Positions 5,693 to 61,839 of a DNA stretch of 64,000 nt are shown in pieces. Location of the stretch: positions 1 to 64,000 of the forward strand of contig JAPOVV010000045.1 in NCBI GenBank assembly GCA_026707945.1, read 5' to 3'. The DNA is from Gammaproteobacteria bacterium. GTDB lineage: Bacteria > Pseudomonadota > Gammaproteobacteria > Pseudomonadales > Azotimanducaceae. Position 1 is the first letter of the stretch, and the number at the start of each line of letters is the position of its first letter. The position numbers and the translations under genes were made by a program. The notes beneath the pieces were generated by a model, which saw nothing but the letters and a program-made list of their open reading frames with translations, had not been told where the DNA came from and made no database searches.

Positions 5693-6724
5693 TCACGTTT
5701 CAGCGACGAGCGTTGGAAAACGGTGTTGAAGGAGCTCCGGCATGATAGGTTCGATTAATTGTCGAGTCTTATTCCATGCAGCGGCAATGATCAGCAAAAT
5801 CACTCCCATGCTAAGTCCGGCGACCGCCATATCCGCAACCGTAAATAGTGCAGCCAACACCCAGACCATTGCACCGATTAACAGTGCTCGGCGGTTGATC
5901 ACCAAGGCGAATACCAGCAGGAGAACAAAGAGTAATACTCCCAGAATTACTTCACTCGTGGCGCTCCACGCTAGATCTTCAGCCCACCAATAGAGTGGCT
6001 GCACAATAAAGGGAGCAGCAACGATGTGGGTCCAAAACGCGACATCCGTCGCTACTGATTGTCGTTTTGGGTCTTTTACATCCCACCAGATCGCGTAGGC
6101 TTCGACTAGACACCCGAGAATGAATGAAGTAGCTAATGCTGGAAACGCGCGTAGCGTCTGCATTTGAGCCCATAGATCGACAAAAGGCAAAGGATCCAGT
6201 TCGTCAAAATAATGTTCGTCGATTAACTGTGACATCAACTGAGTCGCAATGACGGTAACAAGTATTGCTAGCAGAATTGCTAAAACCCCTAGAGCGTGCG
6301 CCAGCGGAATTCGTGCAAAGCGCCAGAAACCAAACGATAGGATAGCTGAAATGGTCAGAGGCACAACGACAGGTAGCATGATAGGTAAGGTAGTCACGTT
6401 TCCCCCGAGATCGGAAGGAGGGGGTGGAACATCGGGTATCGAACCAGCATAGAAAAACTGGAATCCCAAAGTCAATCCTGAAATTGCAACGGCAGTCGAA
6501 ATAACGATACCTGTAAACCTCATTCTTTGATGGCGTACAAAGTACCAAGCCAAACCGAACGCGGAGCCTAGTACAAGAATTTGGTCCAGGTATTTCCCTG
6601 TGATGAGTGTCGTTAAGGAAACGAAGGTGATGATGCAGGCAATGCCTACGAAAATATCGTTATAACCGCTGACGAGGCGAAGGTGTTCCTGTTCAAATGA
6701 AACGTTCTTTGTTGTTTCAGTCAA
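5693..6724 (-). CDS. Polytopic membrane protein of unknown function
   Basis: A protein of about 343 residues dominated by hydrophobic segments; eight to ten transmembrane helices are likely (for example FVGIACIITFVSLTTLI, ALGVLAILLAILVTVIA, VILGVLLFVLLLVFALVI). The start is taken as the TTG at 6724, which has GAGG about nine bases upstream. The frame stays open to 6898, but the extra 58 residues are polar, have no ATG and look non-coding. A proline-rich loop (IPDVPPPPSD) follows the early helices and a DEHYFDELDP loop lies mid-protein. I do not recognise the family. It stands alone, convergent with the PhyH gene and divergent from the next orphan membrane gene. Confidence 0.55.
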   Translation of the reverse strand: MTETTKNVSFEQEHLRLVSGYNDIFVGIACIITFVSLTTLITGKYLDQILVLGSAFGLAWYFVRHQRMRFTGIVISTAVAISGLTLGFQFFYAGSIPDVPPPPSDLGGNVTTLPIMLPVVVPLTISAILSFGFWRFARIPLAHALGVLAILLAILVTVIATQLMSQLIDEHYFDELDPLPFVDLWAQMQTLRAFPALATSFILGCLVEAYAIWWDVKDPKRQSVATDVAFWTHIVAAPFIVQPLYWWAEDLAWSATSEVILGVLLFVLLLVFALVINRRALLIGAMVWVLAALFTVADMAVAGLSMGVILLIIAAAWNKTRQLIEPIMPELLQHRFPTLVAET

Positions 6725-7197
6725 AGTACGTCGCCTCGATTCATGTAAATGATTGGGGTTCGATAAGTTTAGGCTTGAATGGACCCTCCTCGTTTTCGAT
6801 TGGAGAAAATCGTATATCGGATCGTTAGAAACAAGATGAAACACCTGACGATCCAGAGGAATACGTCCTACTAAGTCCCATAGGCGGCGAAGTTCCAAAT
6901 CCTCGTGAAATCACCATCGAAACTGGCGTCACACGATTACCACCTACGCGAGAACCAGGTGGAACTTCGGAACGCGCAGTCCCTTCAAATCCTTACACAA
7001 TAAAGCGTCGGGAATCACCAAAATCGGACTGATTTAGGATATACGTAATCAGCTGGGTAATATCCTATCGATAAGACCTAGTGTTGCACTTGTGAGTCGA
7101 ATTCGAGTAATTCATGACAAAATGGATTGTCTAGTGACTATGAATTTGGGACGCTTACGATTAGCGAACTCTCAATTCGTTTAGCAGGGTTGAGTAA
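6725..7197. other. AT-rich intergenic region between two divergent orphan membrane genes
   Basis: This gap of about 470 bp holds no convincing gene. The frame of the left-hand gene continues through it as far as 6898 without a good start. The right part is AT-rich and presumably carries promoters for both flanking genes, but no strong -35/-10 pair stands out. AGGG just before 7198 is a weak ribosome-binding site for the right-hand gene. Confidence 0.4.
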
Positions 7198-7962
7198 ATG
7201 AACCAGACTAGTCGGCGAATACTTGCTGGCGTGCTTCTTGGGGTCGCGATGTATTTCGCCTTGGGTGTCGCGCTAACGCTCATTTCGTTAGGTGTTCTTA
7301 CCATAGTTTATGTTAGGTATACACCACATAATCGTTTCACGACAGCAAGAACCGCACGAGTTCGCTATTACGCACAGCTGAATCCAGTGAAACAGCTCTT
7401 GTCAGCTCTTAGAGATGCATGGTCTAGCGAAAACGCTCCTCGCTTCTACGACGTTCATCAAGAATTAACTAGCTCTTTACCAAAATACAGCCAACACGCA
7501 AATAGTGCATTGAGCATAGTCAAAAAATACATAGCTTGGCATCAGAAGCGATACGGCGGATCAAATTCGGGGAAAGAAGAGAGCAATGCAAAACCCAAAG
7601 GCGATACAGGTTTCGAAAAGAAGAATTACATATTAGATACTTTTATTGAGATGAAAGCAGAACTGTCTTACTCTACAGAGGTTGAACCAATAGACCCGAT
7701 CCCGTTGGAAGACGAAAGGTTCTTCGATAAAACGATATCAGAATGTAGCAAACTATTCGAGGAGTCCCTTTCTAATCACAATTTTGCGATGATTTACGAA
7801 CAACACAGAACGCGAACATCGTTGGAAAATATGACTGCTAGCTTACGCTCTGAGGTGGCCGCGGCAGACAGGAGAGCTGCAGCTGCTGAATCTGCTGCAA
7901 ATAAGGCGTCCCGACAAGCTAGGTCGGCTAAACGCAAAGCCGATCAAGGCAGAACTAACTAG
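7198..7962 (+). CDS. N-terminally membrane-anchored protein with C-terminal alanine-rich coiled coil, unknown function
   Basis: A 254-residue protein. Residues 8-41 form one long or two closely paired hydrophobic helices (ILAGVLLGVAMYFALGVALT onward). A predicted cytoplasmic helical region follows, with a low-complexity linker near residues 120-140 rich in Gly, Ser, Lys and Glu. The C-terminal 45 residues are Ala/Arg/Lys-rich heptad-like sequence (AAADRRAAAAESAANKASRQ) that would form a coiled coil with a basic tail. No enzymatic motif is visible and I do not recognise the family. The gene is more AT-rich than its neighbours and is flanked on both sides by long AT-rich gaps, which hints at acquired DNA. 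Confidence 0.55.
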   Translation: MNQTSRRILAGVLLGVAMYFALGVALTLISLGVLTIVYVRYTPHNRFTTARTARVRYYAQLNPVKQLLSALRDAWSSENAPRFYDVHQELTSSLPKYSQHANSALSIVKKYIAWHQKRYGGSNSGKEESNAKPKGDTGFEKKNYILDTFIEMKAELSYSTEVEPIDPIPLEDERFFDKTISECSKLFEESLSNHNFAMIYEQHRTRTSLENMTASLRSEVAAADRRAAAAESAANKASRQARSAKRKADQGRTN

Positions 7963-8375
7963 GAGTATCACGTGTTTCCTTATAGTTTTCCGGTCTCAAG
8001 GTCGAACAATTACGGTATTGTCGAGTGTGACGTGCAAGTTCTCGATTTCGGAGGCGATCGTTGATCGTATTTGATCGGTATCAAGTGTCGCTTATTTAGA
8101 CTAAATCTAGATATCGCGTGTTAGACTGGATTACGCTAAATTGCGTTCTGAGTATATTATGAATAGTATAAATATATTCTTAGACGTAAAAAGCTCTTTA
8201 CTTATCTAATTCCAAAAATCAATGGATTAGTTAAAGTTAAATCGAGGTGGGTGTATTCTTCGATATTCTGTCAACTAGTATTTGTAGTTCGTAAAATTCG
8301 CGCGCATCCTGTCCCGCATAAAGGTTGGTCCGGTGACGATGGCCGCAGAAATTTTCTTAATCCGAAAGGTAACGA
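7963..8375. other. AT-rich intergenic region upstream of acnA
   Basis: About 410 bp without a gene. The centre (about 8090-8230) is strongly AT-rich, with TATATTATGAATAGTATAAA-type sequence that would melt or bend easily. A candidate promoter for acnA is listed separately. No tRNA, riboswitch fold or terminator was recognised. Confidence 0.5.
8268..8297 (+). promoter_or_regulatory. Candidate sigma-70 promoter for acnA
   Basis: CTGTCA at 8268 (4 of 6 to the -35 consensus) is separated by 18 bases from TAAAAT at 8292 (5 of 6 to the -10). Transcription would begin near 8304, giving a leader of about 70 bases. Found by eye in AT-rich DNA, so chance is a real possibility. Confidence 0.3.
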
Positions 8376-11051
8376 GTGAGTATTGATTCCTTTAAGTGTC
8401 GTTCGAATCTCGTAGTAGACGATCGCGAGTACGACTTTTTTGACTTAAACGTTGCTGCTAAGAACGGCGCCGGGCACGTAGCAAAAACACCGATATCTCT
8501 AAAAGTGCTGTTGGAAAACCTTCTTCGGTTTGAAGATGGGAGTTCGGTAAATCAACGTGATATCGAAAAACTAGGCAATTGGACCCCAACCAACGACGAT
8601 GCTGCGGAAATCGCGTATAGACCGGCGCGAGTCTTAATGCAGGACTTCACGGGGGTACCTGCTGTTGCTGATCTGGCAGCGATGCGAGGAGCAACAGTTG
8701 CGGCTGGCGCCGACCCCGCACTCATCAATCCTCTAACCCCAGTAGATTTGGTGATCGACCACTCAGTGATGGTTGACCATTTCGGTACCGCAAGTGCGTT
8801 CGCGGCGAATGTTGCAGCGGAGATGGGTCGCAATGGCGAGCGCTATCGGTTTCTGCGCTGGGGGCAACAGGCTTTCGATAACTTCCGAGTGGTACCGCCA
8901 GGTACCGGAATCTGCCATCAGGTCAACCTTGAGTATTTAGCTCGAGTAGTTTGGACGAGGGAAGAAGATGGAAGAACGGTAGCGTATCCCGATACACTCG
9001 TTGGTACCGATAGTCACACGACCATGGTTAATGGTTTGGGCGTATTAGGTTGGGGTGTGGGAGGCATCGAAGCCGAGGCGGCGATGTTAGGTCAACCCAT
9101 TTCAATGCTTGTTCCAAAAGTAGTCGGAGTACGCCTGACGGGAGAGCTAGTAGAAGGCGTTACCGCCACCGACCTGGTATTGAGGGTTGTCGAGTTACTG
9201 CGTGCGCACGGTGTGGTTGGCAAATTCGTCGAATTTTTCGGACCTTCGGTCAAGCAACTATCACTCGCCGATCGAGCGACGATTGCGAATATGGCACCTG
9301 AGTACGGCGCGACCTGTGGCTTCTTCCCAGTTGATTCTGAAACGATTCGGTATTTAGAACTGTCCTCTCGACCAGCTGAAACCGTCGCTCTCGTTGAAGC
9401 GTACGCAAAACAACAAGGAATGTGGCTTGACGAGAACAATGAACCCGAGTTCTCGGAATTGCTGCACCTTGATTTGTCGGACGTTGTACCGTCACTTGCG
9501 GGACCAAAGCGGCCACAAGATCGCGTTTCGCTTGCGGAAATTCGTGATGCGTTCGACGAAGCCGCTGCGCTGAGTGGCACTGAGTCTGATCATACGGCAG
9601 TTTCAGTCGAAGGTGAGGACTACGCACTAAAGGACGGCGACGTCGTCATCGCAGCGATTACATCCTGTACGAATACGTCGAACCCAGCAGTAATGCTCGC
9701 AGCGGGACTGGTTGCGAAAAATGCGTTAAACAAAGGTCTGCACGTCAAGCCATGGGTTAAGACGTCGTTAGCGCCGGGTTCCAAGGTTGTTACTGAGTAT
9801 CTTGAAGAAACCGGACTGCAATCAGCCTTGGATCAAGTTGGCTTCAACCTGGTCGGGTACGGTTGTACCACTTGCATTGGTAATTCGGGTCCCTTGCCAG
9901 AGCCTATTTCGAAAGCGATTGCGGAAGGCAACTTGACGGTATCCGCTGTCTTGTCCGGCAATCGAAATTTTGAAGGTCGGGTCCACCAGGAAGTTCGTGC
10001 GAATTGGTTGGCGTCGCCGCCGTTGGTCGTCGCGTTCGCGATCGCCGGAACGACAAGAATTGACTTGACGACGGAACCGCTCGGTCAGGACGAAGAGGGT
10101 AACGATGTCTTTTTGCGGGACATATGGCCAAGTTCAAAGGACGTGGATGATGTTGTTGGTCGTGTAACCGCGGCGATGTTCTCGCGTCAATACAGTGATG
10201 TATTTACTGGGCCTGAAGCGTGGCGTGAGATCGCTGTGAACGAATCGAGTACATACGGATGGGAGGAATCCACCTACATCAAGCAACCTCCGTTTTTCTC
10301 AGTCGGCGGTGACTTAGACCAAAGCGTCGTCATCGATGAAGCGCGTGTTCTGGCGATTCTCGGCGATTCTGTGACGACCGATCACATTTCTCCCGCGGGA
10401 GCCATCCAACCTGCGAGTCCGGCAGGCGAATACCTTCAGCAAAACGGCGTTCAAGTGCTTGACTTCAACTCTTACGGATCTCGTAGGGGTAATCATGAAG
10501 TCATGATGCGGGGCACGTTTGCGAATATCCGAATCCGGAATGAGATGCTTTCTGACGTTGAAGGTGGATATACAAACCATGTCCCGACAGGGGATCAAGT
10601 CTCAATCTATGATGCTGCCATGCGCTACGAACGAGAAGATACGCCATTGGTCGTCTTCGCCGGAAAGGAATATGGCACTGGTTCAAGCCGGGATTGGGCC
10701 GCAAAAGGTACACGACTACTCGGAGTTAAAGCGGTCATTGCAGAAAGTTTCGAGCGCATTCACCGATCAAATCTTGTCGGAATGGGTGTCTTACCACTTC
10801 AGTTTGTCGAGGGTGAATCAAGAACCGAGCTTGGGCTTGATGGATCTGAGAAAGTAACTATCGGATTTGTCGACGAACAGAGGGAGATCGCTCCGCGACA
10901 AGAACTAAGAATGGTCATTACACGCGCGGATGGGTCCACCGACGAACATCGTGTCATCAGTTGCCTCGATACCGACAATGAGATTGAGTATTTCCGCTGT
11001 GGCGGGATCCTTCAGTTCGTGTTAAACAACATCACCGGCGAGGCGGCTTGA
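8376..11051 (+). CDS. acnA: Aconitate hydratase, AcnA type
   Basis: An 891-residue aconitase, the same length as E. coli AcnA, that interconverts citrate and isocitrate in the TCA cycle through a [4Fe-4S] cluster. The cluster cysteines are visible in [10 protein letters not shown] and in [14 protein letters not shown]. Other signatures are [30 protein letters not shown], the swivel-domain start [15 protein letters not shown], and [13 protein letters not shown] carrying active-site residues. The start is GTG with AAAGG a few bases upstream. The threonyl-tRNA synthetase gene follows after 26 bases, so a shared transcript is likely. No broken motif is seen. Confidence 0.97.
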
Positions 11052-50654: not shown

Positions 50655-51410
50655 CTAGGATCGTCCTTCTGCAAGTCGTTCAGTCGTTAGAAACTCGTAG
50701 CTTTTGCGGATCGCTTCAAGCATATCCGTGTCGCAAGTGTCGAGCTCGACGATCAGCCATTCGAGTATGTTAGGATCGGCCGCGTTAACGATGTCGGCAA
50801 TCTCAAGGGTGCCGTCGCCAACCGCGACATGCGCTTTTCCCTGTTCGTTCGGTCCGTCTTTAATGTGCAGTAGCGGTGCACGGTCTTTAACGTTAGCAAC
50901 TTCTTCAGCCGGATCACACGCACCGAAATTTGCTGCCCAATACGTATCTACTTCAAACTCAACGTCAGGGCAGTTCTTGTAAAACGAGTGATAAGGCAAC
51001 TCACCATTGATCGGTACGAATTCCCAAAAATGGTTATGAAGAAAAAGACTCAATCCATGTGGTTTCAGCGACTCGGTAAGCGAATTGATGCTATCCACCG
51101 TGCGTTCAACGCTGTCTTTGTCTTTAACGTCGTCAGGACCGAACCCGGCTGCGACACGCGTGAGGCCGAGTGCTTGAACGGTTTCAATGGCTTCATTGAT
51201 CTCAGTGCGATTAGCCCAAGGATGGTGACTTGAGGAGACCTGCATGCCAAGATCCTCAACCTGCCTCTTGAACGCCTCCGGTTCTTTACCGAATAAGTTA
51301 AAGGGCTCAACGCCGAGGTAGCCGATAGCTGCGATGTCGCTTAGTACTTTGTCAAAATTGGATTGGCTCTCTTCGCGGAGCGCGTAAAGCTGTACGGAAA
51401 TAGGTTTCAT
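50655..51410 (-). CDS. Sugar phosphate isomerase/epimerase family (TIM barrel)
   Basis: A 251-residue xylose-isomerase-like TIM barrel (AP endonuclease 2 superfamily). Metal-binding positions are suggested by SLFLHNHFWEF, VEFEVDTYWAANFG, PLLHIKDGP and IVELDTCDTDML. Members act on sugars, inosose or hydroxypyruvate. Reverse strand, in the same direction as and upstream-adjacent to nothing: the TonB receptor gene lies 117 bp before it, so the two may share a transcript. Confidence 0.85.
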   Translation of the reverse strand: MKPISVQLYALREESQSNFDKVLSDIAAIGYLGVEPFNLFGKEPEAFKRQVEDLGMQVSSSHHPWANRTEINEAIETVQALGLTRVAAGFGPDDVKDKDSVERTVDSINSLTESLKPHGLSLFLHNHFWEFVPINGELPYHSFYKNCPDVEFEVDTYWAANFGACDPAEEVANVKDRAPLLHIKDGPNEQGKAHVAVGDGTLEIADIVNAADPNILEWLIVELDTCDTDMLEAIRKSYEFLTTERLAEGRS

Positions 51411-51527
51411 CGAATTAGTTTGATTGACACGGTTGCCTTCGCGGCTCGGATTCTACGGTGCGCGTTAACTCGGAGCGCTCAATAGAGCGTGAGTCGACAC
51501 TACGAATCGATTTAGAGGAGATTACCT

Positions 51528-54500
51528 CTAGTGAAAATTGATTCGATAGCGGACGTAGTAAACGCGGCCTGTTGGGTCATGGGTGTAGTAGTCGTAGGCA
51601 CCATCAACGTTCACCCATGGCGCTTCTTCATTGAGGAGATTCTTAACGCCTAGCGCTAGTTCTGAATCGAAGAATTCAGACAGCGTGACGCGATATTGAG
51701 CGTTGACAGTCGTCATGCGATAAATCGTTTCCCAATAGCCGATGTAAGCAGCAAGAAAATCGCTCTGTGGGCTTTCGTCTTTGTAGTCAGAAATCGTGAA
51801 TGAGCTAACGTTTACGGCGTGACGACCGCGAGTCCAGTTTAGTGAATTACGTAAGCGATATTTAGGCATTGAACGCCCGATTGAGTTAGTGACATTTCGT
51901 TTACCGAGACCGTCGATTGCCGACCCATCTGCCAATGTGATTGTGTACTTGGTCGCATAGTTGAGTTCGCTCCGGAGCTGGAATGTCCCAAGACCTTCAG
52001 TGCTCCACGAATACTGAACTGATGCATCGAATCCTGTCGAAGAGAGACTAGGTGCATTGAAGTAGGAAGCAACAGTGCGGACTAAGTAGCCATCTTCGCG
52101 CCGGATCACCTTATCTGGGATGCCTTCGCCAATTGAGAAAACGGAGGGTACGCCATCACCATCATGGTCAACCACTCCACACAATGGACCCACGTTTATA
52201 TCGTGGTTGATACCGGAAGGACAGCGAAGTTGGTTATCCAAATCGACCAGACTCTGGTGACGCTCTCGGGTGATCAAGTTGTCGTATTCGTAACGATAGT
52301 GGTCAAGCGAAATTTCAATTCCAGGTAGAGCGTCGGGTTCCCAAGTCGCGCCGATGCTAAACGCGTCAGCGACTTCAGGAGCGAGATCGGGGTTTCCGTC
52401 GCCAAGCGAAGATCGATACGCGAGAGCAGGTGCATTAGAGAATGGATCGCGCGTGTTCTCGAACAGCGTCAGACTGCCACCACTTTGGAGCAAAGAGCCT
52501 AGCTTGAACGACGTTCCCCAAGAGCTGCGAATCCAGAGCGTTGGGATCGCGGTAATGAGCACATTCACTTTCGGGTCAAATGTATCTGAACCACCGACAC
52601 TGAACTTTTCGTAACGGCCAGCAACCCGTACTTCCAAGCCTTCAAGCAAGGGCGCTTGACCTTCTGCGAAGAACGCCCAGGAACTCACGCTACTGGACCA
52701 GTCTAAGTTTCCGGTCAAAAAGGAAAGATTGAAGCGGTTGGAATTTCTGTCGTAATCAAAATCAGCGGTTTCCTTTCGGTACTGTGCACCAACCGCAATA
52801 CCTATTCCACCATGTCCGAACAAATCCGCACCTTCGCCGATCAGCATGGCGTCCATAACCGTTTGATCCAGCGCTGCGTCTTTGGTTCGAGTGCCATGCA
52901 ACCAAGTAAGCAGAGAGCTTGGATTCTGATATTTCCTTGCCGCTTGGGCAACGGTCAGACTGGGGTCAGCGGGCCATGTTCGAGAATCGTTGGCATCCCA
53001 ACGCGCGCCAGTTGCTGGGTCGTAGACGCTGGTTTGAAAGCTGTTGTAGAAGAAACAGTTACCGGTGCCGAGATTCCCTGAGCCAGGGACACCGAATACA
53101 GGATTACAAGCAGGTCCGCCAAGACCTCGAAAAGCGAGATCCATGCGGTCAGACAGCACGTCGGTGGGTAATACTTGCGTCGTATTGAATTTAGCTCGAC
53201 TCAGGTTTGTCGTCAGCAACCACTCCTGTTCGTCAATCGCGAATTCGGATTTAGAGCCAAGCTCGAATCGTGAACGAGATGAAGTGGTGGTTGAGTCTGT
53301 ACTTACGGGACGAGCCTCGGATGTGGAGCTCGCCGTACCACCGAGTAAGCGCTGCAATGCTTGGTATTCGACAGGTTCAAATCCACGCCGGGCAGCATCC
53401 AGTTGCAAGCCAAAATGATCGGGTTGGATGATCCTGTAGGTTACGTCGGGATACAGTGAGTTACCGCGATAGGACTCATGGTCTGCACTGCTCCAGCTTG
53501 CTGTTAGCGTGGTCGTAGGGGTTACGTGAAAATCGCCGGAGACATGCAGCTTGAGATTTTCCGTTGGTCGAACAACGTGAAAGAAACTTGAGTAGTCGTA
53601 CACGCAAATTCTTGAGAATCGAGGGTGAATACCGAGTGTCCCCATGCCACCGTCATCGGCTGCGGCTTTTTCGCAGTCGAGGTCAGGCAGGCTACCTGAG
53701 AATGAAGCTTGATCTGGTCCACCATTGGGATGCCAATAGTTCGATTGAACCGGTGTGGCGGCACTGCCTTGATGTAAAGGAACGTATCGTCCTGGTTGCC
53801 CAAAACTTGACAGACCAGATCGCCCATAGCGATCAAATCGATCCTCGATTTGCAAGCCTCCGCGGTCTAAAAAACTGGCCGCGAGTAAAAACGTACCTCG
53901 GCTGTATGCGCGACCGTACTTTGTTGATAAAAGCGTATCCTGCTGTGTTCCCGTTTCGTGGTCCGAACTTAATTCGAGCTCGGTTTCCCAGCCGTGAAAA
54001 TCGCGCGTTGTGAGAAAGTTGACGACGCCTGCAACAGCATCCGAGCCATACAGTGCGGAGCTACCATCACGGAGTACTTCAACGCGCTCCAGCACGATGT
54101 TCGGGATTAGGGACCTGATATTGACGTAACTGCTTCCTGTTGCGTCGAAGTTATCACGCAACAACCTTCGTCCATTGAGGAGAACCAACGTTGCGCCACT
54201 ACCTAGATTGCGAAGATTTACGCTTGCTTGACCTTCACTGTTATCCCCACCTACCCAGTTTGTCGCGGAATTTCCTAGTGAACCCACGTTGGCAGTCATT
54301 TGCGCGACGAATTCTTGAATGTCGGTCGCCCCGATAGCATCTAGCGTATCGCGTTGGAAGACGCGTAGTGGCGAATGGGAATATGCGGTTGTTGATTTCA
54401 GGTAAGTCCCTGTTACCACCAACTCGTCGATGTGTTCATACGGTTGCGCGTCTGATTGTTCCTCCTCCTCTTCGGCATTCACAAGCGAGCCGCAAGTGAC

Positions 54501-54605
54501 CAACAGCGCAAGTGCTAAATAACAGATAGTGATTTTGGCAGCGGCTGGCCTGTTGCGACGTCGGTCACTGCTGTTATACGAGTGATATGTGTGGTTCACG
54601 ATCAA
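51528..54605 (-). CDS. TonB-dependent outer-membrane receptor
   Basis: A 1025-residue TonB-dependent transporter. A hydrophobic signal (ITICYLALALLVTCGSLVNA) is followed by an acidic strip and a TonB-box-like start (IDELVVTGTYLK). The plug domain has VNLRNLGSGATLVLLNGRRL and RVEVLRDGSSALYGSDAVAG. The rest is a large barrel, ending in YYVRYRINFH. The start is uncertain between TTG at 54605 and GTG at 54599. Members import iron complexes, vitamins or carbohydrates; the neighbouring sugar isomerase and Gfo/Idh gene favour a sugar-type substrate, which is inference. Confidence 0.93.
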   Translation of the reverse strand: MIVNHTYHSYNSSDRRRNRPAAAKITICYLALALLVTCGSLVNAEEEEEQSDAQPYEHIDELVVTGTYLKSTTAYSHSPLRVFQRDTLDAIGATDIQEFVAQMTANVGSLGNSATNWVGGDNSEGQASVNLRNLGSGATLVLLNGRRLLRDNFDATGSSYVNIRSLIPNIVLERVEVLRDGSSALYGSDAVAGVVNFLTTRDFHGWETELELSSDHETGTQQDTLLSTKYGRAYSRGTFLLAASFLDRGGLQIEDRFDRYGRSGLSSFGQPGRYVPLHQGSAATPVQSNYWHPNGGPDQASFSGSLPDLDCEKAAADDGGMGTLGIHPRFSRICVYDYSSFFHVVRPTENLKLHVSGDFHVTPTTTLTASWSSADHESYRGNSLYPDVTYRIIQPDHFGLQLDAARRGFEPVEYQALQRLLGGTASSTSEARPVSTDSTTTSSRSRFELGSKSEFAIDEQEWLLTTNLSRAKFNTTQVLPTDVLSDRMDLAFRGLGGPACNPVFGVPGSGNLGTGNCFFYNSFQTSVYDPATGARWDANDSRTWPADPSLTVAQAARKYQNPSSLLTWLHGTRTKDAALDQTVMDAMLIGEGADLFGHGGIGIAVGAQYRKETADFDYDRNSNRFNLSFLTGNLDWSSSVSSWAFFAEGQAPLLEGLEVRVAGRYEKFSVGGSDTFDPKVNVLITAIPTLWIRSSWGTSFKLGSLLQSGGSLTLFENTRDPFSNAPALAYRSSLGDGNPDLAPEVADAFSIGATWEPDALPGIEISLDHYRYEYDNLITRERHQSLVDLDNQLRCPSGINHDINVGPLCGVVDHDGDGVPSVFSIGEGIPDKVIRREDGYLVRTVASYFNAPSLSSTGFDASVQYSWSTEGLGTFQLRSELNYATKYTITLADGSAIDGLGKRNVTNSIGRSMPKYRLRNSLNWTRGRHAVNVSSFTISDYKDESPQSDFLAAYIGYWETIYRMTTVNAQYRVTLSEFFDSELALGVKNLLNEEAPWVNVDGAYDYYTHDPTGRVYYVRYRINFH

Positions 54606-54795
54606 GGAAGTTATCTTGCCGTTCGATTAGTCATAGTGTCTATTAAAAAAGCAAAGTTGATCGCATTTACCGCCAAATAGTGATTTAAGAGTGTTCAAAC
54701 CGTCCAACATAAAATCGTTGTTAACTCAAATTCGTGTCAATTGCCTGTCGAAATAAAGCGAAGTGGCGATTTGAATACACAGTTCAGGGGGCGAA

Positions 54796-55959
54796 ATGCC
54801 TAAGTTACGAATGGGGCTAGTCGGCGGCGGCGAGGGATCGTTTATCGGCGCTGTCCATCGCATTGCCGCAGAGCTCGACGGTCAGATTGAATTAGTCGGC
54901 GGAGCCTTTTCGAGTGACCCCGATCGATCGAAACGTTCAGGTGAGTCACTCTATGGTCTACAAGCCGACCGCTGTTACGGTTCTTTTGATGAGTTGCTGA
55001 CAAGAGAGAAGCTGCTCGATACCGATCAACGGATGCATTTCGTGGTCATCGCAACGCCGAATCACGTTCATTACGCTCACGCTAAAGCGGCATTAGAGGC
55101 TGGCTTCCACGTCATGTCTGATAAACCAATGACGTTCAGCCTCGATGAAGCACTCGATTTACGAGAAACTGTCAGTCGCACCAAACGAATATTCGGTTTG
55201 ACGCACAACTACACCGGATATCCGATGATCAAGGAAGCGCGGCACCTAGTTCGCAATGGTGCTTTTGGCACGATACGCCGCATCAACATCGAGTACATCC
55301 AAGGTTGGTTGTCGACGTCCGAAGAATCCCAAGGTAACAAGCAAGCGGAATGGCGAACAGACCCATCTCGTTCAGGAGCAGCAGGATGTATGGGCGATAT
55401 TGGTACGCACGGCGAGAACCTCGCGGAGTACGTCACGGGGCTCCGCATCGAATCACTCTGTGCTGACCTAACTACATTCGTTCCTGGTCGACGACTTGAG
55501 GATGACGGCAATGTACTGCTGCGATTCGAGGGCGGCGCAAAAGGCGTTCTTTCCGCAAGCCAAATCGCTGTCGGGGTTGAGAATGGTCTGACACTGCGCG
55601 TGTATGGTGAGACTGGTGGATTGGAATGGTCGCAGATGGAACCTAACTCCCTTATCGTGCGCTGGCCAGATCGCCCCTTTGAAGTGCGTCGGACCAGCGC
55701 TGCTGGCGTATCGCCCGCTTCGGAAGCGGCAAGTCGAATCCCGCCGGGACATCCGGAGGGGTTTCTTGAGGCGTTCGCATTGCTATACAAGAACTTTGCA
55801 ACGGCCGTTCAGGATGCGGAAACAGGCAAGCACGTGAAAGCGGAGGATTACGATTTTCCGAATGTGAACGACGGCGTTCGAGGGATGCAATTTATTGAAA
55901 CTGTGGTTGCAAGTTCGAATCAAGGCGCGACGTGGCTTAAATTTCCAAAGGTTGATTAA
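54796..55959 (+). CDS. Gfo/Idh/MocA family oxidoreductase
   Basis: A 387-residue NAD(P)-dependent oxidoreductase. The dinucleotide fold is GLVGGGEGSFIGAVH; VIATPNHVHYAHAKAALEAG and HVMSDKPMTFS form the usual central motif (with DKP where EKP is common); the substrate helix has GDIGTHGENLAEYVTG, where the His is the expected catalytic base. Members act on sugars, inositols and amino sugars. AGGGGG precedes the ATG. Divergent from the TonB receptor across 190 bp that must hold promoters for both. Confidence 0.92.
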   Translation: MPKLRMGLVGGGEGSFIGAVHRIAAELDGQIELVGGAFSSDPDRSKRSGESLYGLQADRCYGSFDELLTREKLLDTDQRMHFVVIATPNHVHYAHAKAALEAGFHVMSDKPMTFSLDEALDLRETVSRTKRIFGLTHNYTGYPMIKEARHLVRNGAFGTIRRINIEYIQGWLSTSEESQGNKQAEWRTDPSRSGAAGCMGDIGTHGENLAEYVTGLRIESLCADLTTFVPGRRLEDDGNVLLRFEGGAKGVLSASQIAVGVENGLTLRVYGETGGLEWSQMEPNSLIVRWPDRPFEVRRTSAAGVSPASEAASRIPPGHPEGFLEAFALLYKNFATAVQDAETGKHVKAEDYDFPNVNDGVRGMQFIETVVASSNQGATWLKFPKVD

Positions 55960-55980
55960 CCCAAGACAAAGGAGCTGACG

Positions 55981-56052
55981 TTGAAAATGCATGAGTGTAG
56001 TTCGTCAGTTCATTTACTGTTCATCGACAGTCGGTATACAGCGTTAACCTAG
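55981..56052 (+). other. Possible 23-codon leader or remnant reading frame
   Basis: A TTG at 55981, with GGAG 7 bases upstream at 55971, opens a 23-codon frame ending in TAG at 56050. It lies between the oxidoreductase and LRR protease genes. It could be a leader peptide, a gene remnant or chance; the peptide (MKMHECSSSVHLLF...) has no recognisable feature. Confidence 0.2.
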
Positions 56053-56106
56053 GTAGTTTCTTCCTAAGTAAGCACTGCGTGATTAAATTAGCTCCTAGCT
56101 CTGGCG

Positions 56107-59100
56107 ATGTACTGGCAATTGCGCGTTGCGCGCGATAAATCCGAGATCTCGTTTTCATTTGTGCGTTTTTTTCTAGCCTCCGAAACGAACCGTGGCGTCG
56201 GTCGAATTTACCTAGCAGGTCTTTGCCCTTTAGTCGCGATCGTCCTCTCATTGTTCACATGGGAAGTACACGCACAAAGTGCGGGAGTTGCTCAAGATAG
56301 AGCGGCGCTCGTCGCGCTGTATGAAGCTACCGACGGGCCAAATTGGGTATACAAAACAAACTGGCTATCCGACGCTCCGATGAGTGAGTGGTACGGCGTA
56401 AACACCGACGTGGCTGGGCGTGTTGTAAGCGTTTACCTCAAAGGAAGAGCTGGCGGATTTGGAAGAGGTGTTACCACCCACGGACTCTCAGGTCAGCTGC
56501 CTCCGGAGCTGGGTGATCTATCGGAGTTAACGACTCTGATCCTTGGCATCAACAACCTGAGCGGTCCGATTCCAGCAGAACTTGGCAATCTGACCAGATT
56601 GACCCAGCTCAACTTAGACGACAACAATCTCACCGGTGAAATACCGCCGGAACTAGGAAACCTGTCTAGACTCACCTCGTTACGAATTGCAAACAATCAA
56701 TTAACGGGTCAGATTCCGACGGAAATCGGTAATCTCGAGTTGCTAGTCGCTCTAGATCTAAGTGGAAACAGGATTTCTGGTCAGATCCCCAATGAGCTAG
56801 GCCATCTCACCCGCTTGACTATATTGCTCCTTGGAGAGAACTTTCTGATCGGAGAGTTACCTGACGAGCTAGGGCGCTTGACCGAACTGCGACGCATCGA
56901 GTTGGACGGGAATAGTTTCTCAGGTCCATTACCAGAATGGATCGGGAATTTCAAAGAGCTAACGTATTTTTCAGCTTACGACAACAACTTTAGTGGCGAG
57001 ATACCGGCAACGATTGGTAATTTGACCAATCTGACAGACTTAGTCCTGGGGTGGAATTTCCTATCTGGTGCACTGCCGAACGAAATTAATCAACTTTCTG
57101 AATTGGAATATCTCGATATTAGCCGAAATGAACTCACTGGACGAATTAATCCCGAACTTACAAAGCTCACGAACCTTTGGTACTTGAATCTAAGTGACAA
57201 CAACCTCGTTGGACCGGTAATTTCAGGACTGAGGCGGATGCCGAGTCTTCAAATACTGTACCTAAGCAACAACAATTTCGCAGGACCGTTACCAACCAGG
57301 TTCGTAGACGCACGGACGATATTGCTCTTCAGCATTTCCGGCAACCAAGTCTGTGTTCCAGGTACACACAGTTTCATCTTTTGGTTGGAACGCGTCTTGA
57401 TTCACGACATTTATTCGTTGTCATTTTGTAACGCTACGGATCGGTCGCTCTTGGAGCGCTTATTCGAGGACACAAACGGCGAGAGTTGGGCGAACACAAA
57501 CGGTTGGGGGGAGGATGAGGTTGCGTTAGAACGTTGGTACGGGATCGATACGGATGCACTCGGTCGAGTCGTTTCAATGGATTTGAGTAGTAATGGATTG
57601 GAAGGAAAGATTCCATTGGATTTGGGATACCTCACCCAACTCAGGAGCTTGAATCTTGAAGACAACCAGCTAGTAGGTCGCTTACCGCTTTCATTACGTC
57701 GACTCGCGTTACGCGATTTTCAGTTTGCGGATACGGAACTCTGCGTACCGTTGGAATTGGAATTTCAGTCTTGGTTGGACGATTCAGGCGATTATTCGGG
57801 GACGGGGCTTTCGTGTGAACCGTTGACTGAAAGGGAAGTCATGGTCATGTTCTTCGAGGAAACGGAAGGAGACTCTTGGGCTGAGTCAACGAACTGGCTC
57901 TCGTCTACTCCCATCGAAGAATGGCATGGCGTGGAAGTAAACGGCGACGGCAACGTAACCGCGTTGAGAATTAACGCAAATGGTTTGTCGGGCACCATCC
58001 CCCTTGAGCTTGCGAGACTAACCGAGCTTAAGACGCTCGATCTCGAATGGAATTTTCTTAGCGGGTCCATACCACCCGAGCTCGGGGAAATGACAAATTT
58101 GACGTCGCTCAATTTGGGATTTAACGATCTTCAGGGCTCGATCCCAGTCGAGCTTGGCAATCTGACGGAACTCGCATATTTAGAACTCTCTTTCAATAGT
58201 TTGAGTGGCAGCATCCCGCATGAATTAGGGGGTCTGGTGAATCTCGAGTACCTCGGATTGACAGGCAACTTACTTGCCGGAACCATTCCCTCGGAAATAG
58301 GAAACTTATCGAGTCTTTCGAACCTCCTGCTCAGCTATAACCAGCTACATGGCAGTATCCCGCCCGAACTGAGCAATCTCAACGGGCTTATCACGCTTTC
58401 TCTTCAGGGCAACGGTTTAAGTGGTCGTATTCCCCCTGAACTTGGAAATCTCCCGAACTTAAACAGTTTGTGGTTGAACAATAACGACTTCACAGGTGAG
58501 ATTCCAAAGCAAATTGGCCATCTGACTAATTTGCAGACGTTGAGCCTGCAGTTCAACCGACTGAGTGGTGAAATTCCTCGAGAATTCGGCAACTTGAGTC
58601 AGTTGCAACGCGCTGAGTTAGGCTACAACCGATTTGAGGGCGACATCCCTCATGAACTCGGCAACTTAAGGCGGTTGAGAGCACTTTTACTGAGCGGTAA
58701 TCGACTGAGCGGCGTGATCCCTAGTGAACTGGGCTATCTAAGCGAGCTGGAGGAATTGCATCTTCAAGACAATGACTTAAGGGGTGCGATCCCTTCGGAA
58801 TTAGGTAATTTAGTTGAGCTCACGACACTCGAGTTAAACGATAACAACTTGATCGGTCACCTACCTCGAACGCTCGGTAACTTGACAGAACTTGAGAGCC
58901 TCTATTTACACGAAAACAACCTGTCGGGGTCAATACCGTCCGAATTTGGTGAACTCATTCAACTTAGATACCTAACACTGAGTGGGAATAGCGGATTGTC
59001 AGGCGCCATACCGATCGCGTTAACAGCGCTCAGGCAAATTGAGGTGTTACTAACGGTAGGGACGGATATCTGTCTTCCGACAGAAACTGCCTTTGGCGAG

Positions 59101-60621
59101 TGGTTAGTTCGAGTATATCAGCGTCGGATTAGAAGCTGCGAGTCACGCGGTCCGCTCCTTGCCTTTTTGACACAACCCGTACAGTCACACGATTTCCCTG
59201 TACCTTTGATCGCTAACAAAAGAGCTCTTTTACGTGTATTTCCTATAAACGCGGATGAAGCTAGTCAAACAATCCCAGAAGCTCAAGCACGCTTCTATCT
59301 TGACGATCAAGAGGTTCATTTAGTGAACATACCGTCAAGGGTTTTAGCAGCACCTACGCCAGCGAACCCTGGAAATCTAGGTAGCTCAACAAATGTCGAG
59401 ATTCCTGGTTCAGTGATTCGGTCAGGACTGAAACTCGTAATTGAGGTCGATTCGGAAGCAGCTGCAGACGCCGACTCGGATTCGACTGCTCAAGCGGCGA
59501 CGTCCACGCGAATACCTGTCGAAGTGCATGAGCTACCTGCTTTTGAATTGACGCTGATCCCGTTCGTTCGGGAGAATTCGACCAACCGTCGGATTGTCGA
59601 ATTGGTCAATGAGATGGCCGCAAATCCTCAAACACATCCGATGTTTCAGGAAACGCGTACGTTACTACCCATCGCCGAACTCGACGTGAAAGCTCACGAA
59701 CCAGTTACGACCTCAAACGATGAGGCATATGCATTGCTTGTGGAAACCTCAGTGATTCGAGCAGTGGAAGGGGGAACAGGCTATTACATGGGCATGATGT
59801 CTGACATCGAAGGTCCGATACTAGGTGTCGCATTTGTTAGTGGTCGTGACAGTTTTTCCCGACCGCTCTCCGACACGATCGCACACGAACTCGGCCACAA
59901 CCTTAGCTTGAGGCACGCGCCTTGCGGCGGTCCCGCTGGGGTGGATGCTTCCTTCCCCTACTCAAATGGAACGGTTGGTACTTGGGGATATGACTTCCGT
60001 GGCAGCGGATCAGTCGTTCAACCTTCCACACCCGATCTGATGTCATATTGCGATCCGATCTGGGTTAGTGACTATCACTTTTCGAACGCATACCGGTACC
60101 GCTTATTTCTAGCACATCAAGAGGAGAGTGCGGTTGTGGCTGCCCAACAATCGCTACTAGTGTGGGGTGGTCAAAATGCAGACGGTAAGTTAGTGTTAAA
60201 CCCCTCTTTCATTGTTCACGCTCCTCCGAGGCTTCCGGAATCTGATGGCGAGTTCGAGATTACCGGTCGAAGATCGAGTGGAGATGAAATGTTCTCTCTT
60301 AGCTTCGATATGCAAGTCGTAGCCGATAGTGAACAACACAAGAGTTTTGTCTTCGTAATTCCCCTAGAACTGGACTGGGAACCTGAACTGGATGCCGTTT
60401 CTTTAAGCAGCACAGATGGCTCTATTGCGGTCGATGTGGGCGGTTCGAAATCAATGTCGATGTTGCGCAATCCAATTACGCGTCAAATTCGAGGCATTCT
60501 TAGTGCACCTAGGAAAGATGCTTCTGCTGATGCCGAAGCGATCGTCGAGCGTGCTTCGCAGCGTGGTCTCGAGGTGTTGTTTAGTCGCGGTTCGCCAGAA
60601 GCATCCGATCTGAATCCATAG
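56107..60621 (+). CDS. Large secreted leucine-rich-repeat protein with metzincin-like zinc metalloprotease domain
   Basis: A 1504-residue exported protein (signal segment CPLVAIVLSLFTWEVHAQS). Three tandem modules make up residues about 60-1015. Each has an N-cap of the type ALYEATDGPNWVYKTNWLSD...WYGV, plant-type 24-residue LRRs (LSGPIPAELGNLTRLTQLNL), and a C-cap of the type C-V/L-P...F..WL. Module 1 has about 11 repeats, module 2 only about 2, module 3 about 15. A zinc protease domain follows: HELGHNLSLRH at 1260-1270, HExxH plus a third His, and a Met-turn-like DLMSYC with Met1312. The usual Gly of the metzincin motif is Ser. A beta-rich C-terminal domain ends the protein. Likely an adhesive or digestive surface protease; the target is unknown. 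Confidence 0.88.
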   Translation: MYWQLRVARDKSEISFSFVRFFLASETNRGVGRIYLAGLCPLVAIVLSLFTWEVHAQSAGVAQDRAALVALYEATDGPNWVYKTNWLSDAPMSEWYGVNTDVAGRVVSVYLKGRAGGFGRGVTTHGLSGQLPPELGDLSELTTLILGINNLSGPIPAELGNLTRLTQLNLDDNNLTGEIPPELGNLSRLTSLRIANNQLTGQIPTEIGNLELLVALDLSGNRISGQIPNELGHLTRLTILLLGENFLIGELPDELGRLTELRRIELDGNSFSGPLPEWIGNFKELTYFSAYDNNFSGEIPATIGNLTNLTDLVLGWNFLSGALPNEINQLSELEYLDISRNELTGRINPELTKLTNLWYLNLSDNNLVGPVISGLRRMPSLQILYLSNNNFAGPLPTRFVDARTILLFSISGNQVCVPGTHSFIFWLERVLIHDIYSLSFCNATDRSLLERLFEDTNGESWANTNGWGEDEVALERWYGIDTDALGRVVSMDLSSNGLEGKIPLDLGYLTQLRSLNLEDNQLVGRLPLSLRRLALRDFQFADTELCVPLELEFQSWLDDSGDYSGTGLSCEPLTEREVMVMFFEETEGDSWAESTNWLSSTPIEEWHGVEVNGDGNVTALRINANGLSGTIPLELARLTELKTLDLEWNFLSGSIPPELGEMTNLTSLNLGFNDLQGSIPVELGNLTELAYLELSFNSLSGSIPHELGGLVNLEYLGLTGNLLAGTIPSEIGNLSSLSNLLLSYNQLHGSIPPELSNLNGLITLSLQGNGLSGRIPPELGNLPNLNSLWLNNNDFTGEIPKQIGHLTNLQTLSLQFNRLSGEIPREFGNLSQLQRAELGYNRFEGDIPHELGNLRRLRALLLSGNRLSGVIPSELGYLSELEELHLQDNDLRGAIPSELGNLVELTTLELNDNNLIGHLPRTLGNLTELESLYLHENNLSGSIPSEFGELIQLRYLTLSGNSGLSGAIPIALTALRQIEVLLTVGTDICLPTETAFGEWLVRVYQRRIRSCESRGPLLAFLTQPVQSHDFPVPLIANKRALLRVFPINADEASQTIPEAQARFYLDDQEVHLVNIPSRVLAAPTPANPGNLGSSTNVEIPGSVIRSGLKLVIEVDSEAAADADSDSTAQAATSTRIPVEVHELPAFELTLIPFVRENSTNRRIVELVNEMAANPQTHPMFQETRTLLPIAELDVKAHEPVTTSNDEAYALLVETSVIRAVEGGTGYYMGMMSDIEGPILGVAFVSGRDSFSRPLSDTIAHELGHNLSLRHAPCGGPAGVDASFPYSNGTVGTWGYDFRGSGSVVQPSTPDLMSYCDPIWVSDYHFSNAYRYRLFLAHQEESAVVAAQQSLLVWGGQNADGKLVLNPSFIVHAPPRLPESDGEFEITGRRSSGDEMFSLSFDMQVVADSEQHKSFVFVIPLELDWEPELDAVSLSSTDGSIAVDVGGSKSMSMLRNPITRQIRGILSAPRKDASADAEAIVERASQRGLEVLFSRGSPEASDLNP

Positions 60622-60783
60622 AGCACGGCAGCGGAGGTAGTCAGTTACGCTCGAATCGTGTCGTCTTGGTTACTAATCGAAAGCTTGGTCGCCGCAACGC
60701 TTGAAGACTCTGCATCTAAATTAGGCGCATTGGTCATCCGTGCACGCTGATAATTTCCCGGCATATTTAGGGGAGATCTTGCG

Positions 60784-61839
60784 ATGAAAACACTTCGAGG
60801 TCCAGCGATTTTTCTCGCGCAATTCATGGCAGACGAGGAACCATTCGACAATATTGAATCGATGGCGATTTGGGCGAGCAATCTTGGTTTTAAAGGAATC
60901 CAAGTACCGATTGGAAACCCAAGTTTCATCGATGTCGCGAAAGCAGCGGAAAGCAAGGATTACTGTGATGAGCTCCGAGGTACGGTAGCACAACACGGTG
61001 TTGAAATCACTGAGCTGTCGACACACTTAGAAGGTCAGCTTGTCGCTGTTCATCCGGCCTATGACACGCTCTTTGACGGTTTTGCGCCTGAGGCTATGCG
61101 GAATAAACCGAGAGAACGGACCGAATGGGCCATCAACCAGGTAAAACTCGCGGCGAAAGCGAGCCAGAACCTTGGGTTGTCTGCACACGTCACTTTCTCC
61201 GGCGCTTTTTTGTGGCCTATGGTCTATCCGTGGCCACAGCGTCCGTCTGGGCTGGTAGATGCGGGATTCGAGGAAATCGCTAAGCGTTGGCGCCCGATAC
61301 TGGACGTATTTGAAGAGTGCGGGGTTGATTGTTGTTACGAGATACACCCCGGTGAAGATCTCCACGATGGCGTGACATTTGAACGTTTCTTGGACGAAGT
61401 GGGCAACCATCCGCGAGCGAACATCTTGTACGATCCCAGTCACTTCGTGTTGCAGCAGCTTGATTATTTAGCGTTTATCGATATTTATCACGAACGCATC
61501 AAGATGTTCCACGTTAAGGATGCCGAATTCAATGCAACAGGGAAACAGGGCGTCTACGGTGGTTATCAGGATTGGGTGGATCGCGCAGGTCGCTTCAGAT
61601 CGCTAGGCGACGGTCAAGTTGACTTCAAATCGATATTTTCAAAGTTCGCAGCGTATGACTTCGACGGCTGGGCTGTACTTGAATGGGAGTGCTGCTTGAA
61701 GCACCAAGAAGATGGTGCACGAGAAGGTGCAGAGTTCATCAACGAACACATCATCCGTGTGACGGAAAAAGCGTTTGATGATTTCGCATCGTCGGGTACG
61801 GACGAAGATGCCAACCGACGTGTCCTAGGACTCGGCTAA
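60784..61839 (+). CDS. Sugar phosphate isomerase/epimerase family (TIM barrel)
   Basis: A 351-residue xylose-isomerase-like TIM barrel, longer than the one at 50655. Likely metal ligands occur in CYEIHPGEDLHDG, ILYDPSHFVLQQ, KMFHVKDAEFN and VLEWECCLKH, the usual Glu/Asp/His set. GGGGAG lies about 9 bases before the ATG. It follows the LRR protease on the same strand after 162 bp and precedes cyoE by 30 bp. With the Gfo/Idh oxidoreductase upstream it would fit a polyol or sugar catabolic route. Confidence 0.88.
   Translation: MKTLRGPAIFLAQFMADEEPFDNIESMAIWASNLGFKGIQVPIGNPSFIDVAKAAESKDYCDELRGTVAQHGVEITELSTHLEGQLVAVHPAYDTLFDGFAPEAMRNKPRERTEWAINQVKLAAKASQNLGLSAHVTFSGAFLWPMVYPWPQRPSGLVDAGFEEIAKRWRPILDVFEECGVDCCYEIHPGEDLHDGVTFERFLDEVGNHPRANILYDPSHFVLQQLDYLAFIDIYHERIKMFHVKDAEFNATGKQGVYGGYQDWVDRAGRFRSLGDGQVDFKSIFSKFAAYDFDGWAVLEWECCLKHQEDGAREGAEFINEHIIRVTEKAFDDFASSGTDEDANRRVLGLG

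Follow-up and report, generated by a model that had tools for sequence, protein, structure and literature searches.

The window, a 64,000-nucleotide stretch of gammaproteobacterial DNA, encodes a 1504-aa protein that we interpret, with moderate confidence, as a secreted, LRR-addressed extracellular metzincin drawn from an expandable repertoire. The open reading frame starts with ATG and contains no internal stops. The features of the gene and its insertion site are as follows, with positions counted in the window:

55960..60783 (no strand): insert extent relative to the empty site in five congeneric genomes, between the Gfo/Idh and AP_endonuc_2 genes
56107..60621 (+): LRR-metzincin protein, whole gene, 1504 aa (ORF)
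56107..56274 (+): signal-peptide-like N-terminus, start codon uncertain; hydrophobic 13-mer GLCPLVAIVLSLF, mean 2.49
56278..56526 (+): LRR module 1 N-cap, aa 58-140, including one degenerate repeat from aa 117
56527..57318 (+): module 1, 11 full 24-residue LRRs, aa 141-404 (Pfam, register scan)
57319..57429 (+): C-cap 1, Cys416 and Cys441
57430..57822 (+): module 2, aa 442-572: N-cap, 2 LRRs and C-cap with Cys546 and Cys570
57823..57954 (+): module 3 N-cap, aa 573-616
57955..59046 (+): module 3, 15 LRRs, aa 617-980 (Pfam, register scan)
59047..59151 (+): C-cap 3, Cys989 and Cys1011
59152..59571 (+): first beta-sandwich domain, aa 1016-1155 (AlphaFold2 model, strands predominate)
59572..60141 (+): metzincin-like catalytic domain, aa 1156-1345 (Pfam, alignment, structure model, profile, Foldseek)
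59884..59916 (+): zinc motif HELGHNLSLRH, aa 1260-1270 (sequence, alignment)
60040..60051 (+): Met-turn-like MSYC, aa 1312-1315 (alignment)
60142..60618 (+): C-terminal, mainly beta domain (second beta-sandwich), aa 1346-1504 (AlphaFold2 model)

In a 24-residue register scan, module 1 resolved into 12 repeats (one degenerate, at residue 117, followed by 11 full ones), module 2 into 2 (residues 488 and 512) and module 3 into 15 (starting at residue 617), which confirmed the original prediction of three cap-LRR-cap modules with about 11, 2 and 15 plant-type repeats. Repeat spacing was 24 residues inside every module, with one exception of 25. Pfam LRR_1 matched the protein at E 1.2e-68, and the 24-residue plant-type consensus LxxLxLxxNxLxGxIPxxLxxLxx was evident, with N and G in all 27 counted repeats and P in 25 of them. 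Two further Gammaproteobacteria MAGs carried the gene intact and in synteny, and a fourth genome had a broken copy. A 70-aa N-cap query detected three copies per gene in all three orthologs; the C-cap Cys pairs 416/441, 546/570 and 989/1011 were kept across these orthologs, and all eight Cys residues downstream of the signal region were conserved. Hydrophobic cores resembling GLCPLVAIVLSLF also occurred in the orthologs L005 and L006. The protein, previously predicted to be secreted, is probably so, judging from a signal-like N-terminus in 3/3 orthologs; the junction between VHA and QS is the probable signal cleavage site.

Identity between pairs of the three orthologs was 67-71%. Omega was 0.110 and 0.098 in the two pairs with finite dS, and the third pair was saturated. 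The gene is under purifying selection, and conservation of the 1504-aa product is far beyond chance.

The catalytic domain retains the metzincin motif HExxHxxGxxH/D with one substitution (Gly to Ser). H1260, E1261, H1264, S1267, H1270 and M1312 were identical across the three orthologs, and in a 13-row alignment of the family the three His, the Glu, the Met, C1273 and C1315 were invariant (13/13). The predicted HELGHNLSLRH with Ser in the Gly place lies at residues 1260-1270, and the MSYC of the Met-turn-like LMSYC at 1312-1315. The Ser is real but not diagnostic: the usual Gly position was occupied by S, T, N or D in 8/13 rows and by G in 5/13. The Met of the D-x-M-x-Y-C motif, a putative Met-turn, was invariant in 13/13 rows by alignment. 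Conservation of HExxH in homologues was verified across the collected family, in which the motif HExxHx5[HD] was present in frame in 96/99 modules and absent in 3.

Structure and profile searches agreed with the metzincin-like assignment. When a 210-aa model of the catalytic domain was searched with Foldseek, the 17 PDB entries that matched at E<=0.001 were exclusively metzincins, with probability 1.00 (E 1.2e-4 to 9.1e-4, query TM 0.36-0.46, rmsd 4.8-9.4, identity 12-18%); among them were ADAM-8, snake-venom proteases, CpaA and fragilysin. This model was weak, with a pLDDT of 69.4 and values below 50 over most of residues 136-210, after the HExxH helix. A profile search with the catalytic domain matched ADAM33 at E 6.2e-5. 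With a three-domain model, no metzincin was found among the 50 Foldseek matches listed, and nothing reached E<=0.001. The best-scoring Pfam protease family was M66 (PF10462), at 21.0 bits against a cut-off of 20.6 and over profile positions 190-236 only (47/306); the profile matched 16 of 17 scanned relatives, 12 of them above the cut-off. A catalytic domain of the metzincin type is supported by the matches of the 210-aa model and the profile match to ADAM33.

The nearest outside relatives of the window protein were found in Gemmatimonadota, with up to 50.6% identity, and its own non-LRR paralogs shared 26-29%. The same LRR-protease order, sought in related genomes, was recovered in the orthologs and in Gemmatimonadota. 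Two Gemmatimonadota genomes, G425 and G426, contained 24 and 27 family protease frames, of which 17 and 23 carried LRRs (40/51 together, 2-33 LRRs per frame); two of these 40 (L146 and L147) showed no repeat under a stricter pattern. These many diverging copies in two other genomes suggest a toolkit for cutting chosen extracellular targets. The size difference between modules had been attributed to internal duplication and repeat loss, a local event that the module order argues against: one Gemmatimonadota protein, L114, has the complete long, two-repeat, long order, and another, L112, has it from a point within module 1 onward. N-cap 1 was closer to Gemmatimonadota N-cap 1 (0.69) than to its own other N-caps (0.43, 0.36), as were C-cap 1 (0.36 vs 0.30, 0.28), C-cap 2 (0.51, 0.47 to Gemmatimonadota C-caps 2 vs 0.30, 0.36) and C-cap 3 (0.42, 0.45 vs 0.28, 0.36) to their counterparts. 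N-cap 2 (0.41, 0.41 vs own 0.43, 0.31) and N-cap 3 (0.32, 0.30 vs own 0.36, 0.31) gave no such signal. A recent local duplication with repeat loss is therefore unsupported by module order and cap identities, two of the six caps being uninformative, and the module set is an old architecture shared with Gemmatimonadota, where its order is repeated in full.

Before trees were built, 5/99 modules shorter than 380 aa were left out, followed by 16/94 (13 near-duplicates and 3 long branches). A 42-row clade in which every row carried LRRs (support 100/99) contained the window protein, L005 and L006, and this trio (100/100) was placed among Gemmatimonadota rows; LRR rows outside the clade numbered 6/48. 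AU tests rejected neither a placement of the trio apart from the remaining 39 LRR rows (p 0.153) nor its grouping with the window protein's non-LRR paralogs (p 0.182). For a possible second transfer, through genome G009 (L035), the tree and an AU test separate L035 from the trio (p 0.0007). However, the 7.4-kb L035 contig has 63% G+C, compared with 46% and 66% at two other loci of G009, so it may be misbinned and is not counted. A single clade of all Gemmatimonadota rows was rejected (p 7.7e-5), a result that also hinges on L035 and was not relied upon as proof. In a class-wide sample, the protease profile matched 14/369 genomes, including that of the window, at 18 loci, 3 of them in the window genome; among the 11 loci examined by pattern, 10 had the zinc motif without LRRs, and L075 had no frame with either.

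The 4.8-kb insert separates two genes that are spaced 5-75 bp apart in five congeners. Among the genus genomes with the downstream gene (9/18), the site was empty in 5, occupied in 3 and held a broken copy in 1. We propose that the gene entered the gammaproteobacterial genus by an old acquisition between an existing metabolic gene pair; the tree favours, without proving, a donor from Gemmatimonadota. Flanks searched singly for mobile-element ends gave one palindrome upstream and none downstream. The longest words common to both flanks were 8 bases (direct) and 7 bases (inverted), compared with 7.9 on average after shuffling, and a target-site duplication or terminal repeat is thus not evident; transposon insertion was rejected on these searches. 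Viral spread was rejected after one scan of viral contigs (5 pattern matches, 0 relatives), as was plasmid spread, for which 2/72,556 records matched, both below 60% identity and neither covering 80%.

The LRR face was compared in ortholog and paralog pairs hand-picked from the tree. Concave positions were conserved above the convex side in the three ortholog pairs (p 0.0018, 0.0074 and 0.0011). In seven within-genome paralog pairs, concave identity was 0.19-0.54 and protease identity 0.62-0.75; six pairs fell at 0.19-0.40 on the concave side, and one retained 0.54. Protease identity was also lower in four of these seven pairs (0.62-0.66) than in the window orthologs (0.70-0.76), so plain divergence explains part of the concave fall. 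The concave excess was absent from two Gemmatimonadota cross-genome pairs.

These comparisons bear on a somewhat unlikely alternative, in which the protein is a general degradative exoenzyme and the LRR array merely an adhesive or matrix anchor that holds it near food without target selection. The gene lies amid Gfo/Idh, two AP_endonuc_2 and TonB-receptor genes that look like sugar catabolism, and protease relatives bear other adhesion-type front ends (Ig-like, cadherin-like and Spondin_N/fn3), both of which suit an anchor. However, the concave face is conserved among the orthologs, the family has multiplied within two genomes as frames of 2-33 LRRs, and most of the examined paralog pairs differ in their concave faces, all of which speaks for selection of targets. 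Multiplication would also suit competition within a dense community, where the LRR part of a weapon would recognise surface proteins of rival microbes or protist predators instead of animal-host proteins; we consider this improbable, given that Pfam scans of five neighbouring proteins found no immunity- or weapon-like gene. It is highly improbable that the LRR part serves the protease in cis, whether as a cover, a folding aid or a scaffold, since 51/99 family modules lie in frames without a detected LRR, and the LRR part is thus not generally required for folding or latency.

In the LRR-addressed reading that we favour, the protein would be exported by Sec and then by the type II secretion system; GspD in this genome scored 385 bits against a cut-off of 351, with a neighbouring GspC-like protein below its cut-off. 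The concave LRR surfaces would bind a particular extracellular surface or matrix protein, most likely of a sponge host, as the close relatives appear from MAG names to be of marine sponge origin. The bound arms would hold the protease against the target, the protease would cut it or a neighbour, and family members with different LRR faces would address different targets. Target-guided proteolysis by the LRR-protease fusion can fairly be inferred. More tentatively, two phyla with probably common sponge hosts may possess expandable LRR-addressed metzincins that moved between them and that remodel or shed chosen host or community surface proteins. The repertoire would then possibly combine a conserved cutting unit with repeat number and concave surface that vary between copies of one genome. 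If right, these readings would provide a concrete enzyme class for bacterial action on chosen extracellular targets, beyond lists of eukaryote-like repeat proteins, and would document how a large gene that couples recognition to an enzyme has spread between two phyla. The family offers a ready-made series of recognition arms attached to a single protease scaffold, and comparing its copies could map target recognition.

Among known systems, peptidase family M66 (PF10462; StcE and TagA as named in passages of PMC10847046) is the protease family in Pfam that scores best with the window protein, and a Thermus plasmid relative annotated 'M66 family metalloprotease' shares 29.6% identity over 72% of the query. 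M66/StcE is described in those passages as a protease that is secreted by the T2SS and remodels the mucosal lining (PMC10847046). StcE had no entry among the 60 profile matches or 50 Foldseek matches listed, and the LRR front end distinguishes the window protein from M66. Eukaryote-like repeat proteins are known from sponge symbionts, and LRR proteins and cadherin-domain genes are reported as enriched in sponge MAGs (PMC8163846, in part); no LRR-protease fusion appears in the sections considered, and 'peptidase' occurs 0 times in the main text. Among the titles and abstract openings listed in literature searches, none named an LRR-M66 or LRR-metzincin fusion. Stand-alone plant-type LRR proteins of the same genus share the N-cap and 24-residue repeats of the window protein (N-cap matches in 11/18 genus genomes, the window genome among them); they are about 390-606 aa where uncut, and an HExxH protease motif was not seen by eye in the displayed frames. 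Adamalysins/ADAMs, fragilysin and CpaA, the last likewise a secreted bacterial protease judging from its entry name, are the best fold and profile matches to the catalytic domain; they differ from the window protein in its LRR front end, at 12-18% identity among the best 17 fold matches. Repeat-based recognition repertoires include plant LRR receptors and lamprey VLRs. If the proposed reading is true, LRR-metzincins would, by analogy, be the protease counterpart of these repertoires.

The leucine-rich repeat (LRR) protease of the window is encoded by one open reading frame.

56107-60621, plus strand: LRR-protease open reading frame, ATG start, 1504 residues

Three cap-LRR-cap modules joined in one chain to an HELGHNLSLRH/MSYC protease, as the original prediction had described, were seen in this protein, whose domains run from a signal-like N-terminus through LRR modules 1-3, a beta-sandwich and an alpha/beta catalytic domain carrying both motifs to a final mainly beta domain. 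The proposed counts of about 11, 2 and 15 repeats held for full repeats, and module 1 has an additional degenerate one. The signal-like N-terminus consists of a hydrophobic core followed by VHA-QS in the window protein and by VSA-QS and VYG-QS in two orthologs, where the hyphen marks what we take to be the signal cut. The three domains downstream of the LRRs (residues 1015-1504) were modelled with a mean pLDDT of 73.6 and a pTM of 0.77. Eight of the nine cysteines lie downstream of the signal region and all eight are kept across the three orthologs; their spacing suggests four putative pairs, namely, one per C-cap and C1273-C1315.

A scan of the genome collection yielded 33 pattern matches and 8 loci. 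The same LRR-protease order, sought in related genomes, was complete in two Gammaproteobacteria MAGs, COS2_bin_11 (locus L005) and COS4_bin_15 (locus L006), where the whole protein has the same neighbouring genes. The three proteins are 67-71% identical; two of the pairs gave a finite dS, with omega values of 0.110 and 0.098, and the third pair was saturated. The MAG prefixes COS and RHO are possibly abbreviations of Coscinoderma and Rhopaloeides, sponges that were sampled in PMC8163846, but linking the bins with this study is a guess. Protease matches were present in 10 of 58 relatives (window genome counted); of these 10, 9 belong to the genus and the remaining one to a different genus of the same family. 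Three genus genomes carry an intact gene of the window type, namely, G000, G016 and G017, of which the last two match L006 and L005, respectively, in frame length. In genome G010, a 120-aa frame with an N-cap piece and a C-terminal piece lie on different contigs, and a second LRR-protease copy (L037, contig C59), broken by stops and frame changes, adjoins the end of an IS256 transposase fragment.

Several other frames were recorded. A 7.4-kb contig of genome G009 (L035, 63% G+C) bears an LRR-protease without N-cap or signal and is possibly misbinned from Gemmatimonadota. Genome G013 has a 2478-aa frame (L039:2580-10013) that combines roughly 16 Big_9/cadherin-like repeats with a short LRR module, which is capped, and a protease of the same type (HEFGHNFSLRH); this frame and its binning are doubtful because of an odd-looking LRR-to-protease stretch and a G+C of 0.60. 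Tandem non-LRR proteases occur on contig C47 of the window's own genome (L042:3473-5734 and 6151-10566), the longer with Ig-like repeats, and paired matches were also found in G006, G017 and G001. Contig C22 of the window's genome holds a 3609-aa open frame (L004/L043) weakly matching the LRR part.

The flanking genes, Gfo/Idh upstream and AP_endonuc_2 downstream, directly adjoin in five congeners (gaps of 75 bp in G006, 36 bp in G004, 12 bp in G007, 12 bp in G003 and 5 bp in G015) and are 4,824 bp apart in the window; the LRR-protease gene is therefore an insert. The downstream gene is present in 9 of 18 genus genomes. The area, comprising a TonB receptor, Gfo/Idh and two AP_endonuc_2 genes (50655-55959 and 60784-61839), resembles a gene neighbourhood for sugar or polyol catabolism that is interrupted by the LRR-protease. 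Identity between the window and the other carriers is 95% and 87-88% for the flanking enzymes and about 70% for the LRR-protease, and thus the latter evolves faster. Its G+C of 0.49, near the window mean of 0.507 and unlike the 0.62-0.70 of Gemmatimonadota LRR homologs, suggests that the gain was old.

The family is multiplied in two Gemmatimonadota genomes, with 33 profile matches in the genome behind L007 (RHO3_bin_73) and 28 in that behind L008 (SB0664_bin_10), both MAGs of this phylum; the genomes behind L009 (Myxococcales) and L012 (bacterium) had 6 and 2. Protease-module frames above 150 bits, read from stop to stop and in some cases ending at contig edges, numbered 24 and 27 in the two Gemmatimonadota genomes, and 17 and 23 of them were LRR-bearing by a profile made from the window repeats; a stricter repeat pattern found zero repeats in 2 of 40 LRR frames (L146 and L147). 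Of 395 sampled Gemmatimonadota genomes, 171 gave a match, with copy numbers that are lower bounds at about four scored candidates per genome. The window protease module is 50.6% identical to that of the Gemmatimonadota LRR-protease L112, versus 28.9% and 26.0% to its own two C47 paralogs. In a tree of 78 protease modules, the window protein, L005 and L006 (100/100) were nested among Gemmatimonadota rows in a clade of 42 rows that all bear LRRs (100/99), and five non-LRR modules of the genus formed a separate clade (100/100). Six further LRR rows fell outside the 42-row clade, and LRR presence required two changes on the tree. Forcing the trio outside the other 39 LRR rows was 31 log units worse (p-AU 0.153), and forcing it with the five non-LRR modules was 21 log units worse (p-AU 0.182); neither alternative was rejected, and the trio appears to belong inside the LRR clade among Gemmatimonadota rows, at a provisional place.

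The unequal modules had been ascribed to internal duplication and repeat loss, and this explanation was not supported as a local event, since the long/2-repeat/long order is shared with Gemmatimonadota proteins. The pattern reading was N[11]C N[2]C N[11]C Z for the Gemmatimonadota locus L114 and N[11]C N[2]C N[14]C Z for the window (Z, protease), and L112, which begins inside module 1, continues with 2-repeat and long modules as in the window. Four of the six window caps are closer to same-module Gemmatimonadota caps than to caps elsewhere in the window protein, whereas no such tie was seen for N-caps 2 and 3. Short middle modules recur in other LRR frames, and at least three C-caps occur in 7 of 48.

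The recognition face was compared over 27 repeats, at six concave and six variable convex positions each. Concave versus convex matches of 162 in the three ortholog pairs were 96 vs 67, 88 vs 63 and 84 vs 54 (summed by hand), with a concave excess at p values of 0.0018, 0.0074 and 0.0011; under a stricter repeat pattern, their concave identity was 0.51-0.58 (background 0.13-0.14). For seven pairs of paralogs, both members of each pair coming from one Gemmatimonadota genome and sharing 5 to 15 aligned repeats, the analysis gave protease identities of 0.75, 0.75, 0.75, 0.62, 0.66, 0.64 and 0.64 and concave identities of 0.54, 0.40, 0.30, 0.22, 0.36, 0.25 and 0.19, respectively (background 0.10-0.13). 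No concave excess was seen in two Gemmatimonadota pairs taken from different genomes (concave identity 0.56 and 0.58). This pattern, from small, hand-picked and non-independent pairs, fits ligands that would be conserved among orthologs and changed among most paralogs, and part of the paralog concave fall is plain divergence.

Conservation of HExxH among homologues, on which the zinc site had been staked, was found: all 13 aligned members have the three His, the Glu and the Met, and the zinc motif is kept in 96 of 99 modules of the family. The three copies without it look inactive from their sequences. Two are LRR-protease frames of the Gemmatimonadota genome G425 (L122:3576-7028 and L144:3365-6553), and the third is a 2613-aa frame of G029 (L040:1676-9514), in which Spondin_N, fn3, Calx-beta, cadherin, FG-GAP and TSP_3 matches precede a probably inactive module reading QEIGH and MSNC. 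A GspD of type II secretion, above cut-off, and a GspC-like neighbour were also detected. Most likely, the window protein would be exported by Sec and perhaps then by the type II system, its LRR arms would bind an outside protein, and the protease would cut at or near the binding site; a host might be the target.

The LRR and metzincin parts are each of known kinds, and no description of the fused, multiplied family was found in the titles and abstract openings listed by searches of open-licence papers. A profile of 13 relatives matched the solved structures of ADAM33 (E 6.2e-5), venom metalloproteases, Bft and CpaA. The model of the catalytic domain only (mean pLDDT 69.4, with high values for most residues up to 130 and values below 50 over most of 136-210) had 17 PDB matches at E<=0.001, namely, to ADAM-8, venom proteases, CpaA and fragilysin; the three-domain model had zero at this threshold and no metzincin among the matches listed. 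The suggested comparison with M66 and other metzincins supported the broader class: the metzincin structures matched by profile and catalytic-domain model are ADAMs, venom proteases, CpaA and fragilysin/Bft. The window protease is like Pfam M66 in sequence (0.4 bits above cut-off), but only 47 of 306 profile positions matched, and we class it as a metzincin whose sequence resembles M66 rather than as a firm M66 member.
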